Below, in pieces: positions 6,350 to 20,019 of a DNA stretch of 23,138 nucleotides. Position 1 is the stretch's first letter; every line of letters begins with the position of its first letter. Source of the stretch: Spizellomyces punctatus DAOM BR117 (taxonomy: Eukaryota; Chytridiomycota; Chytridiomycetes; Spizellomycetales; Spizellomycetaceae); assembly GCF_000182565.1 (NCBI RefSeq), contig NW_015971550.1:607027-630164 (forward strand). The letters are read 5' to 3'. Under the pieces are notes generated by a model that saw only the letters and a program-made list of their open reading frames with translations, had not been told where the DNA came from and made no database searches. Made by a program: the position numbers and the translations under genes.

Positions 6350-7216
6350 GTCTATGCCGAGGAGAAAGGAGCGAGGAAGGATGGTGTTTGAAGAACGCTT
6401 GAAGGCTGCGCACGCGAATACCAATATTTACGTGAAGGTCGCGGGGGTTACACGGAGGTGAATCTCGTGACCTCGCTATTAAAATCCAATAATCACAACT
6501 GCAACCTATTAATAGGCACAAGTTGGTTATTTGAATTATTTACTTATTTGACATCTTTTGAAAAGTGGAAACGAAATTAGAAACTATCTGCATAAAAACA
6601 ATAAGTCGACTTGCAAGAGGACCTGGTTGACTGGGATAGAGTTCCTTACTTTCGCAGCACATAGCCCCAACAGCTCGGTCACAATATTCTGTTAACTGTC
6701 TCTGCGGCTGAACAAGAACTCTACATAGGACATCTGACGGATATCTCACCATACCAGTCAGTATTTCACAGAAAGAAATTGTAGCGCCGGCCAGATAGCA
6801 GATCCAAGCACTGGATAGTCGCTTCCACAAGTTCTATTTGTACTTGGAAATGCCTTCGAGCGATGTGCGTTGGGAGAACAGACGCCGTACCCCGAGCCCA
6901 AAACATCACACCTAGGAAACCCTCACTCAAATCTATCAGAAACCTGCCTTGCAACCAGAGCGCACCGCACCGGTGAATTGCATGAAAAAGAATAGCATCT
7001 ATTTTAAGCATCCCGTCTATCAAAACCATTAAGTGCGCATGGTTTGACAGGCAAATGCTACTATTAATAGAGATAATGTCACTACTAATACGTTGAGAAT
7101 TTCGACCGACCATTAATGTTATTCAATGCCTCTGACAGCTGCTGCCATAGATAGGCAGCTGCACAGGAGGAGAACCCGATACGTCTTCGGCTGCCATCGC
7201 TTCTTAGCGCATTAAG
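6350..7216. other. Long intergenic region containing direct-repeat copy A
   Basis: An 867-bp gap between the divergent starts of the F-box gene and the ATPase-zincin gene. It must contain both promoters. The only clear structure is repeat copy A at 6518-6604. Two overlapping minus-strand ORFs (6540-6830 and 6766-7113) show no domain and no sign of conserved splicing, so I do not call them genes. Confidence 0.6.
6518..6604 (+). repeat. Direct repeat, copy A (87 bp)
   Basis: Begins ACAAGTTGGTTATTTG and ends AACAATAA. It matches 9896-9981 in the same orientation with five substitutions and one single-base indel (about 81 of 87 columns identical by hand alignment). Similarity stops abruptly on both sides. 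It lies about 170 bp upstream of the F-box gene start and about 610 bp upstream of the ATPase-zincin start. Confidence 0.9.
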
Positions 7217-9781
7217 ATGGCCCACATCCATATTCTTGAGCAACAGCACTCAAGTTATGTGAACGAATTTCTCTTAAATACACGCGGAATGCCTCCCTTG
7301 CCAGAGTGCACACCTGACCAAGACCCTCGCAAGGACTTGAACATTCACAGAACCTATCACGAGACATCGACATCGTTCACAACCCAGAGAGAATTCTTGC
7401 AGAACTGGATTGATCAATGTCGTTCATTGGCTAGAGGAGAACCTGCCTTTGTAGCAACGGAGTGCCGGGTTGGCAACGTCGGGAAGGTCAGATTCTTTGG
7501 TGTTTGTGATAAAACCACCCTATTGGCGTTGGGATACGTCTGTGAGCTGATTTTGACGGATCCGAAAGGGGAGGCTGCCGTCAGAACCTACTTTACCAAT
7601 TATGGGACGGTGCTGAAGCGACATATGATGGCAATGGGAAAATCCAGCAAACGCAATGACACCCGCAGTGCCGGCTATTTTGGGGAAGGGGTCAAGGTGG
7701 CTATTAACCGACTAACTGCCGAGGGTGCCCGCGTGCGATATTTCACTGGATGGAATCTGTGGACCTTTGAGTACGACCAGGAAGATATTTTACAACTCAG
7801 GTTCCAACACCTTTCCAGCCCACAGGCCACTACCGCAATAGTTGATCTGCTGAACGATTCCGGAGTACGCTTTCCTCTACGGCGAAACTTCACGCTTCGG
7901 CCCATTGACACCGCCGACTATCTATTCCTGCATCGAGCCGCATACCCGAACATCCAAACCAATATTCTAAGGACTACGGACATCGAAGTGATTGTTGATG
8001 TTCCGGAATTATTCGGCAACTTGTACGTGAAAGACATCAAATGCATCGCAGATACAGACCTCCGCGTGAAAGGCCGTGTGGACGGGAAGAGTGTTGAGTG
8101 GGGATTTGCTGTGAATTATATCGGGCCACAGACGAACTACAATTTGTTAGGGTTGAGTCGGGACCGAAACACTCTGTATCCGGGCAAAATCCTACGCTTT
8201 GTTCCCGGTTTATTCAGTTCACTCGATACACTGATCTCGCCAAGCGATAAGCGCACGTTCGCTGCCTATCTATTAAAGATGTTGATGCAGCAGTCTCAAA
8301 CATCTGGGGGGCTTTCCAACCAACTCCGCAACTCTAATGATAGAAAGGTCGACCAGATCTTTGCAGATTACATCTTTTTTGCCCTCGCATCGTCTGTTGC
8401 CATGCGTCCGCTAGTCGAAGACGATCTTCAGCACTTCTTTCCTTTCTTGAAATACGAGCAGGATGATGCGAAACAGGCAACTTATCTGGGAGCCTACGTC
8501 ATTGAAGTTCCGCAAGATGTGTTCAACATCCTTGAACTCTCCAGATTTTATCAGAAGCTTACCCAATTATGGGACCGGAAGAAAGAGGAGGCAAAACGAC
8601 AGCCTGACTATGACCTTTCGCCGATTGCCGCATTTGCAGATGATTTATGTAAAGCTATCTATTCATTCTTCCAAATCCCTCGTGAGGCCATCGCATTCAA
8701 GGCTTTCCCGATCAATCGCGAAAACCCGAACCAGACCGTTGTCATCGACGTCCCTGTTCCAAATCTTCCTAGCGGCAAGGGATATATCATTGACGGGAAC
8801 TTATTAAATCGACCCGCTGCACACCGAATTCAACGTAAGCAGACTGGGGAGAAATGTGATAGGACTGATTGTATGTGTGTGCAGATGTGCGTTATTGATG
8901 CGTTGAAGGTGCTTCTGTCAAACGGAAACCGTTCCATGCAACGTAAACTGGAGAAAACGATGTTGAGGAGGAGTTTAGAGGGCTTCATGCAAAACTTGCC
9001 CCCCTCTGTTGCGCAAGAAGAGGAAGAGCAGCAGAAGATTGGAAGCGCCTTCAGTAATCCGAGGGAGCAAGAGACGAATCCTGGTGGCACCCCTTTGCGC
9101 TCATCCTCAACAGGCGAAGCGGGCAATCGCCGCCATACGGGTACCAAAACTCAACCTCCACCCGATATTGCGCAGGACACCGGTGATGAAGGCCCTCGTC
9201 TTCCTGTCAAGCCAACTGACTTGGAATCCTTGGCGAATGATATTGTAAGAGACGTCCAAGAATATGCGCGCAATGCCAGCTCTAGTGCCCCAGACTCTAT
9301 CCTCCACGTCGCGAATCCAGTCAAGAAATGGAAACTGGTGACGTGTGACGGATGTCCTTGTTTGAACCTCGTAAAAGTTCACAATCTCTACATCGACGCC
9401 AATACCACTTCCCCACCCGGAGCAGAAATTCTTAACCTTCGTGATGTCTTCTGGGACCTCGTTCTCGCACCTCTGGCAAATCTCTTCAAATATCCGAAAA
9501 CCAAGGTGCACATATTTTGGGAAGGTAAGGGTTTGATAGCGTTCAACAAAGGCGGAATCCTCTACTACAACCTTCGATATTTTGATGTGCTGCACCGGAA
9601 GAGAGTCGAGTCGTATGAGATTCCGGAGGTTTTGATGTGGTGGTTCGTCATATTTGCCCATGAATGCGCACACAATGTAGCATCCGGACATGACAAAGAA
9701 CACGAATGGGCAGAGGAGATTCTGATTCAGAAACATTTATCAGATTTGATGGAGTTATGTACGACGTACAAGAACTATTAA
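7217..9781 (+). CDS. Intronless GHKL (Hsp90-like) ATPase with C-terminal HExxH zincin motif
   Basis: A single 854-residue ORF with no intron. The ATG at 7217 is preceded by an in-frame stop. The N-terminus looks like a GHKL ATPase: an N-box REFLQNWID (58-66), then NYGTVL (128-133), then MGKSSKRND and a glycine-rich ATP-lid motif GYFGEGVK (153-160). The aspartate usual in the DxG motif is not present at NYG. A central region follows. A hydrophilic segment at about 605-685 carries the E/Q run EEEEQQK. The C-terminus contains HECAH (815-819) followed by GHDKEH (824-829), a plausible zinc-binding HExxH metallopeptidase site with a further His ligand. ATPase-zincin fusions related to sacsin-like proteins are known in fungi and other eukaryotes; their roles are poorly understood. 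Substrate and function are unknown. Flanking direct repeats and lack of introns set it apart from all neighbours. Confidence 0.8.
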   Translation: MAHIHILEQQHSSYVNEFLLNTRGMPPLPECTPDQDPRKDLNIHRTYHETSTSFTTQREFLQNWIDQCRSLARGEPAFVATECRVGNVGKVRFFGVCDKTTLLALGYVCELILTDPKGEAAVRTYFTNYGTVLKRHMMAMGKSSKRNDTRSAGYFGEGVKVAINRLTAEGARVRYFTGWNLWTFEYDQEDILQLRFQHLSSPQATTAIVDLLNDSGVRFPLRRNFTLRPIDTADYLFLHRAAYPNIQTNILRTTDIEVIVDVPELFGNLYVKDIKCIADTDLRVKGRVDGKSVEWGFAVNYIGPQTNYNLLGLSRDRNTLYPGKILRFVPGLFSSLDTLISPSDKRTFAAYLLKMLMQQSQTSGGLSNQLRNSNDRKVDQIFADYIFFALASSVAMRPLVEDDLQHFFPFLKYEQDDAKQATYLGAYVIEVPQDVFNILELSRFYQKLTQLWDRKKEEAKRQPDYDLSPIAAFADDLCKAIYSFFQIPREAIAFKAFPINRENPNQTVVIDVPVPNLPSGKGYIIDGNLLNRPAAHRIQRKQTGEKCDRTDCMCVQMCVIDALKVLLSNGNRSMQRKLEKTMLRRSLEGFMQNLPPSVAQEEEEQQKIGSAFSNPREQETNPGGTPLRSSSTGEAGNRRHTGTKTQPPPDIAQDTGDEGPRLPVKPTDLESLANDIVRDVQEYARNASSSAPDSILHVANPVKKWKLVTCDGCPCLNLVKVHNLYIDANTTSPPGAEILNLRDVFWDLVLAPLANLFKYPKTKVHIFWEGKGLIAFNKGGILYYNLRYFDVLHRKRVESYEIPEVLMWWFVIFAHECAHNVASGHDKEHEWAEEILIQKHLSDLMELCTTYKNY

Positions 9782-9793: not shown

Positions 9794-10720
9794 ACTATTT
9801 TGCGTTGGTGGTAGGCAATACCATTAGAGCGGGCGTATCAGATTGTATCAGGGATTTGTAGTGTGCTAATGTATATAGGTTATCACCCCAATCGTACAAG
9901 TTGGTTATTTGAATTATTGATTTATTTGACATCTTTTGAAAAGTGAAACGGAATTAGAAACTGTCTGCATGAAAACAATAATGCAAATGCATTCTGCTAG
10001 TTGGAAATAGGTTTGTTAGGTAGCCTGTCAATCGCGTACGGATTTCCTTCATCAAATGGTATGCTAAATATCATGTCGAAATCGAGCATTTTATTTAGGC
10101 ATTGACTTGGGATCACCATCTTTTGGCAAGAACCCTTTTGGCATCATAGTTTATCTGACATGGTGCATCATGATAATCCTACTCCTCAGCTATCGTGATG
10201 TCCATCTTTCAGAATCCCCTGCTATTAACTGTAATATCTGCCTACTTTAGACGTTACCATGAAGGATGGTTAGAATATTTGTTCAGAATGGATCCACAGA
10301 TATCAACCTTGCTGTAGCAATGATATAGCATAATAATGTGCCATCTCTGACACTTGCAAAATACGGTAATGGCCTCAATCCCACATTAGAACTGCCATTG
10401 TAGCGGTTAAGCAAGTTGGAGTGCGTAATAGTACCAGCAATTGTCGGCTGCGTTTCTGGCCAATTAGCCAAATCCCTTGTTGCGCTTTAAGGACGAGAAT
10501 GAACATACTAATCGACGTGAGTCAAGTAGAACTTTCGATCGTTACAAAGAATCATATTCACCTCCTGAACCCAACTGAATCCGAGTACTTGCAAGGAAAA
10601 TAACAAATGCAATGTTGCAATTTGACCATTAAGGATATCAATACGACATATCGCCCGCCTCTCATACATGCTCCTAGTTTCATATATACACCATCTAATG
10701 CAATCGCTATCGCCGTGCTA
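9782..10720. other. Long AT-rich intergenic region containing direct-repeat copy B
   Basis: A 939-bp gap between the convergent 3' ends of the ATPase-zincin gene and the RING gene. It holds the second 13-bp repeat unit and repeat copy B (9896-9981). The rest, 9982-10720, shows only short random ORFs and no recognisable RNA or element. Confidence 0.6.
9896..9981 (+). repeat. Direct repeat, copy B (86 bp)
   Basis: Second copy of the repeat at 6518-6604, same orientation, offset 3378 bp. It lies 115 bp downstream of the stop codon of the ATPase-zincin gene, so that gene sits between the two copies. No similarity extends beyond the copies. Confidence 0.9.
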
Positions 10721-18488: not shown

Positions 18489-19378
18489 TCAAGGAATCGG
18501 TTGGCCAACAAAGTTGCCGCTGTCAAAGCAAGAAAAAAGGATTAAAAACTTGGTATCCCTTATTAATAACGCAGGAGACATGTCAAAAAAACTCACGCAG
18601 GAAAGTACTCGCAGACAACAAATGAAAGCTTTTGGCCAGTTCCGTCATTCACACCGAGGGCACAACCCAATTCCTTTGTCGTGCCCCATACAACTTGAGA
18701 GTAATGTCCATAGGCGTGAAAGTCGCCATCGCCAATCAGCCCACTTTTGGGCATTAAGCTCTTTTCATCGTACCAACTCTGAACGGCAGGTCCGCACGCC
18801 TGATTCTCGTCGCCACTTGTTGAAGAGGCAAAAAGATTTTCACCAAAGGGACCTCCCGAATGTTCAAGATCAAATTTGCCAGAGGCCGCAAGCGTGTTGG
18901 CCCAGTTCTGAGCATGTGCAGCAGCCTTGGCTGACCACACGAGAGCGCCCTTGCCATCTTGAGCACGAAGGCGGTTGTGAGTGGCGAGACAATCATCCTG
19001 GAATGAGCCCTTTGGGACCGGTTTGGGCTCTGGCTTTGGAATAGGAGTCGGCGTGGGTTCGGGTTTGGGTTTGGGTACGGTGGGTACGGACACGAACTTG
19101 GCCGGTTCCGGTTTAGGTGTAGAAATAGGTTTTGGCGAATCGACGGGTTTCGGAGCGGGAAGCGCAGGTGTCGGCACGACTTTGGGCAGTTCCACATATG
19201 AAGGAGGTTCTGGCGTCGCTGTGGGAAAGACTGCGGCTGTTGATGTGACCCGCTTCTTGCAGTTTCCCTCGTGACGTGCAGCGAGCCGGCGCCTGCACTT
19301 TAGACCCGCAGCGGATACAGAGTCCGTCGCACTGAGAGCCGCGACGGCGATAACCATGATACTTGCCAACTTGACCAT
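18489..19378 (-). CDS. Secreted CAP/PR-1 (Pry-like) protein with Pro-Lys-rich spacer
   Basis: Extracellular CAP-superfamily protein of 270 residues. Members bind sterols and lipids in yeast and are common secreted fungal proteins. Two minus-strand exons: 19378-18597 and a 31-nt terminal exon 18519-18489. The long exon alone would stop at VCEYFPA, but a GTGAGT donor there joins to GNFVGQPIP, restoring the conserved CxYxPxGN motif. Signal peptide: residues 1 to about 23 (hydrophobic MVIAVAALSA, then SVSA). Residues about 55-127 are a low-complexity Pro/Lys/Glu spacer with PKPEP-like repeats. The CAP domain follows: CLATHNRLRAQ, LEHSGGPFGENLF, GHYSQVVWGTTKELGCA and VVCEYFPAGN. It is divergent from the adenylate kinase gene. 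Confidence 0.95.
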
Positions 19379-20019
19379 AATGAGAGAGGGCGACCTGCGC
19401 TTTACGTTCTATGTAATTCTATATATATAATACAGACGCACAAACACGGCAGTGCAAAGACCAGCTTGCAATCCGAAAGTGTTGAAATGAGGAGGAACAC
19501 GTTGGGGGGGAGGAAGCGGAGGTGCTGGCACTTTAATACCCATTTTTTTCCCTTCCTTCTTTTTACGCCTGCCGTTTTTTTTGCAAGTCGGCTGGTCGCA
19601 CGGATGAGCCGCTCACTAGCGCAAAAAATTACAATTTTTAAGTTTTCGGACAAACGGTACGGCTTACATAAGCATGTCGGACGGCCAATTCCGCTTGTGC
19701 GCATTGTAGTTGCCATGTCGTTGTGCATGGGCATTTTGTTTGTCAGTGCATGTGCTGCACTTGTTCGAGATGGGGGTTTGTAGGTCGATCGGTTAAGGGA
19801 GCTGGCGGCGTCAGCATTCTATTGTTCCCCTTTGGCAATAAAGGATCATTTCCCGTAGATACCCTCCATATTCCTTTGCCAATTAAATGTCATGACACTA
19901 TATTCGTAACATTCCTTGAATGGCCGAGTTTCTGTCCTGTATCATAGTGTGATTTTTTACTCATTGTGCCGGGAGACCTTGGACCACATACACATCTTTT
20001 GGATTCTCTGGACAAGAAC
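19379..20019. promoter_or_regulatory. Divergent promoter region, CAP gene and adenylate kinase gene
   Basis: A 641-bp gap between divergent starts. A TATATATATAA-like run at about 19421-19433 sits some 45-55 bp upstream of the CAP start codon and is a good TATA candidate for that gene. No similar element is obvious for the adenylate kinase. Confidence 0.5.

Follow-up and report, generated by a model that had tools for sequence, protein, structure and literature searches.

In Spizellomyces punctatus DAOM BR117 a single uninterrupted gene encodes a protein whose N-terminal half is related to phage GHKL ATPases and whose C-terminal tail is homologous to the end of a DUF3684 gene elsewhere in the same genome. 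The gene lies in a stretch of 23,138 nucleotides (the window; positions 607027-630164 of contig C14, NW_015971550.1, which ends at 630164). We favor, with modest confidence, the reading that its product is an ATP-gated metalloprotease, a phage-type clamp fused to the protease end of the host DUF3684 protein. The frame (7217-9781, + strand) stays open for 854 codons, and no frame in 300 base-shuffles of the window ran beyond 254 codons; this bears out the original prediction of an intronless gene. The protein database's own prediction for this gene begins at M25, giving 830 residues, so that translation may start at M1 or at M25. Genome-wide results given below refer to 23,997,880 bases in 29 contigs. 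The gene and its parts are as follows.

7217..9781, + strand: intronless gene, 854 residues, with a phage-type GHKL ATPase, a linker and a zincin-like tail (open frame, shuffle control).
7334..8251, + strand: GHKL ATPase domain and second (transducer-like) domain, residues about 40-345.
7388..7414, + strand: N-box REFLQNWID (E59, N63, D66); in 13 aligned proteins Q62, N63 and D66 are invariant and E59 occurs in at least 90%.
7634..7702, + strand: ATP-lid region MGKSSKRND...GYFGEGVKVA; G141, K145, G153, G156, E157 and G158 are invariant with the phage proteins.
8153..8170, + strand: LSRDRN motif (L-x-R-D-R) of the second domain; L313, R315, D316 and R317 are invariant with the phage proteins.
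8252..8611, + strand: helical stretch, residues about 346-465, perhaps collinear with the phage C-terminal part (best BFVD match, 458 columns).
9005..9286, + strand: low-complexity linker, mostly disordered-looking, residues 597-690 (composition; predicted local distance difference test score below 50 nearly throughout; predicted helix at 666-686).
9365..9757, + strand: zincin-like tail (residues 717-847), a homolog of C4:352878-353318, where the DUF3684 gene has its last large frame.
9659..9691, + strand: HECAHNVASGH, putative zinc site (H815, E816, H819, H825); the C4 gene and the WLM protein of the host itself show identical spacing.

To what family does the ATPase half belong? A Pfam scan of the protein gave no HATPase match and nothing significant for this half, and the protein had no match in NCBIfam, in PADLOC or, by sequence, in the PDB. 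PHROG 6077, whose function is listed as unknown, matches at E 1.2e-11 over residues 125-200, an alignment spanning only profile positions 47-127 of 366, and PHROG 8203 matches at E 3.5e-5; this gene alone matched the PHROG 6077 profile within the genome. A profile made from 25 phage and viral-contig sequences scored 48.5 bits on the fungal protein. The best control (200 shuffles and one reversal) scored 1.8 bits. Among 498 open frames, taken from the window and from eight genome loci that overlap in part and four of which contain other GHKL genes, the runner-up scored 5.5 bits. A second profile, from 47 sequences, scored 55.1 bits. Among the host's GHKL genes the ATPase half has no close relative, and no second copy of it was found in the genome.

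Most of the motifs, and a fold comparison, point the same way. GHKL proteins are recognized by, among other motifs, a G1 box (DxGxG) and a G2 box (GxxGxG) with a lid lysine. The fungal protein has the N-box Glu and Asn (E59, N63), the G2 box (GYFGEG, G153-G158) and the lid lysine (K145); the G1 box is missing, the sequence there reading TNYG, and is degenerate in several of the aligned phage relatives too. The N-box, lid and LxRDR residues listed above as invariant are, among others, invariant across all 13 sequences. In a fold comparison against the PDB, 47 of the 50 rows shown are GHKL proteins by entry title, aligned within residues 24-404. BFVD gave six matches at E ≤ 0.001 (1.1e-11 to 3.6e-5), and all three that carry names are phage proteins. 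In the helical stretch the hidden Markov model segment 414-453 is collinear, yet below noise on its own (-3.3 bits).

With E allowed up to 1, tblastn returned 50 phage records; of the 20 listed, Escherichia phage 4MG was the best (E 2e-3). Two profile-based IMG/VR scans gave 26 and 49 loci, with many contigs common to both. Across 74 viral loci, a number that counts some contigs twice, the ATPase frames are 165-449 codons long, mostly about 350-420. HExxHx5H occurs in none of them; one of the 74 has HExxH without a third ligand, and one neighboring viral frame (two fetches, one contig) carries HEINHCVPLHH. Phage GHKL proteins of the PHROG 6077 kind, such as 4MG_173 of Escherichia phage 4MG and the 'RIIA lysis inhibitor' of Pseudomonas phage PAKlein3, have the N-box, the GxxGEG lid, LxRDR and perhaps the helical C-terminal part in common with the fungal protein, but the viral frames are shorter and lack the zinc-site pattern. 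T4 rIIA was also compared. No PHROG named rIIA was matched by the fungal protein or by six phage and viral-contig relatives, and a 1021-residue phage protein named RIIA matched the fungal protein only weakly (E 0.6). Divergent rII modules are reported to counter the Rex system (PMC11879866); the fungal protein is similar to rII proteins in plan, but on the PHROG and BFVD results its membership of rIIA is no more than possible. Judged by sequence, it would be a PHROG 6077 GHKL protein bearing a host-type zincin-like tail.

Further searches with the fungal sequence turned up no full-length relative. The search of protein databases with the full length and the C-terminal residues, suggested in the original prediction, covered 5.8 billion proteins with three queries, namely the entire sequence, residues 715-850 and residues 40-360, each of which returned only the window's own protein; this search needs shared exact words and its coverage of eukaryotes is uncertain, so it is a weak guide to fungi. 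Viral contigs scanned with just the protein as query gave six pattern-matching stretches, none of them a confirmed relative. In bacterial and archaeal genomes two scans gave 316 and 383 pattern stretches with none confirmed, confirmation being against the fungal sequence, so that distant kin could be missed, and a plasmid scan found no relative.

The tail is 30-33% identical to a single other place in the genome, the end of the C4 gene, and has every zinc-site residue in common with it. The site predicted earlier, HECAH-x5-HDKEH, was found as HECAHNVASGHDKEH at residues 815-829, and its HExxH and third ligand (H815-E-x-x-H819-x5-H825) are shared with the C4 gene. The bare motif proves little: HExxHN searched as DNA gave 54 matches in the genome and 37 in the reversed control, and an unrelated antisense frame among the 498 open frames also contains HExxHx5H; it is the homology to C4 that backs the site. 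The WLM profile (PF08325) does not match the gene, which separates it from the Wss1-type WLM metalloproteases, and the metzincin family Reprolysin_5 scored 11.6 bits, below its cut-off of 27. The metzincin pattern has Gly at the position where the tail has A822. When the two tails were searched as a profile against the PDB, snake-venom metalloproteinases came up (E 0.011-0.019) and after them ribosomal proteins, and this result was not used as proof. The tail was not found in phages; in viral contigs 115 pattern stretches yielded no confirmed relative, nor did a DNA-pattern scan. The structure models are poor overall, GHKL-like and without a convincing zincin fold. The two-domain architecture first proposed is correct in outline for the ATPase, and for the tail, which has the site and the C4 homology in its favor, a zincin remains a plausible reading. 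As to paralogs, none was found for the ATPase part and one further locus for the tail.

Two cysteine clusters, at which metal binding is possible, also lie in the 854-residue protein: CDRTDCMCVQMC (8846-8890) and CDGCPC (9341-9361). The second is absent from the C4 tail.

The frame upstream of the C4 tail is a DUF3684 protein (sacsin/Hsp90-like; E 2.5e-150), a match to sacsin itself being sub-threshold. This gene spans contig C4 from locus L007:5926 to locus L008:5345 and is split over several separate frames, as introns would give. Its tail lies outside the Pfam DUF3684 match. The two genes thus have the same C-terminal zincin-like domain but different bodies: that of the C4 gene matches DUF3684, not PHROG 6077, whereas the DUF3684 profile (PF12449) gives no match to the body of the 854-residue protein, which is encoded in one frame. 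No paper was found under the name DUF3684 in the open-license literature searched. The body of the C4 gene also matches PADLOC models for TmtA, of bacterial defense (best E 1.5e-12). Adjoining its 3' end is a Fanzor-like transposon gene (L008:5772-7355, - strand, about C4:353772-355355), one frame of which matches the solved Fanzor of S. punctatus (253 residues, E 1.4e-120), the sequences not being identical; since its successive frames are broken by stops, it is probably a decayed copy.

The earlier description of a chaperone-like ATPase fused to a protease is strengthened by the presence of the same tail behind the DUF3684 body. That a genome should carry this tail twice, each time on a different clamp body, is the strongest argument for a clamp-plus-protease mechanism. 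We propose that residues 40 to about 465, to judge from the conserved motifs, form a phage-type (PHROG 6077) GHKL ATPase that binds and, we infer, turns over ATP. By analogy with Hsp90, MORC or type II topoisomerase ATPases, it would close as a dimeric clamp and capture a client, which may be a protein or a protein on nucleic acid. The flexible linker would tether the zincin-like domain, predicted to bind zinc, so that it cuts the captured client. The gene may have originated when an ATPase gene of phage type was joined to the 3' end, with its protease region, of the host DUF3684 gene or its ancestor, the direction of this fusion and its date being likewise inferred; the DUF3684 protein would then be another enzyme built on this plan. 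No paper on an ATPase-zincin fusion was found in the open-license literature searched.

The alternative with most in its favor is that of an old fungal family, in which the full-length ATPase-zincin protein was inherited vertically and is only distantly related to the phage proteins, which would not be its source. Relatives may simply be missing from the collections, given the uncertain eukaryote coverage noted above, and the tail is common to a host gene. Composition fits as well: the GC content of the gene is 0.484 (window, 0.478), and its third-position GC, 0.535, falls within the 0.49-0.55 of three other stretches of coding sequence. By composition the gene is therefore not foreign, and the GC comparison with neighbors proposed as a sign of foreignness turned out ordinary. 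No second copy of the ATPase part was detected in the genome, nor any relative in the three protein searches, but neither result says anything about other fungi. We think this explanation possible, if doubtful.

Of the earlier proposal of horizontal transfer, what survives is a plausible horizontal origin for the ATPase part alone, whose nearest kin are phage proteins; base composition shows no sign of recent arrival. A fuller version would have the chytrid combining a GHKL ATPase of a tailed-phage family with its own DUF3684 protease tail into a new eukaryotic ATP-gated protease, the same tail on two unrelated clamps then marking a general fungal 'clamp plus protease' design, perhaps serving quality control, the handling of protein-DNA crosslinks or defense. 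We consider this fuller version unlikely. Weighing somewhat against it, PHROG 6077 also matched Thermus composti and Deinobacterium chartae, two of 14 bacterial genomes used as controls, and the family is therefore not confined to phages.

A pseudoenzyme or scaffold, in which the clamp or the protease site is non-catalytic and the protein acts as a regulator or binder, is less probable again. The degenerate G1 box would suit it, and conservation of the tail was judged from two tails only, but E59, N63, the GEG of the lid, H815, E816, H819 and H825 are all retained.

The gene-bearing segment of 3.4 kb is bracketed by the direct repeats noticed in the original prediction, whose copies are identical at 81 of 87 positions (93%):

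6518..6604, + strand: direct repeat, upstream copy, 87 bp, 93% identical to 9896-9981.
9896..9981, + strand: direct repeat, downstream copy (repeat comparison).

Either a local duplication or an insertion that left a long target duplication could account for them. Together with the lack of introns they are what had suggested a processed cDNA or the cargo of a mobile element, a very improbable origin: no intron-bearing parent gene for the ATPase part was found in the genome and no A-run follows the stop, further copies of the repeat or of the tested flanks were not found elsewhere in the genome (by a word search that skips very common words), the segment ends have no inverted repeat of at least 16 bases, and 87 bp far exceeds the target duplications of such elements. 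Inverted repeats inside each flank told nothing.

Across the window, Rfam and tRNA scans found nothing. The statement that all nine other genes have introns was not confirmed: at least one of them, a CAP-domain gene (18596-19408, - strand), reads as one open frame from a signal-peptide-like start, through a proline-rich stretch, to a complete CAP domain, and looks intronless.

For PHROG 6077, a fungal fusion to a protease would provide a link to client capture, and the S. punctatus gene would allow ATP binding and proteolysis to be measured in one and the same protein. The analysis also points to a zincin-like tail on the fungal DUF3684 gene beyond the coverage of the Pfam model.
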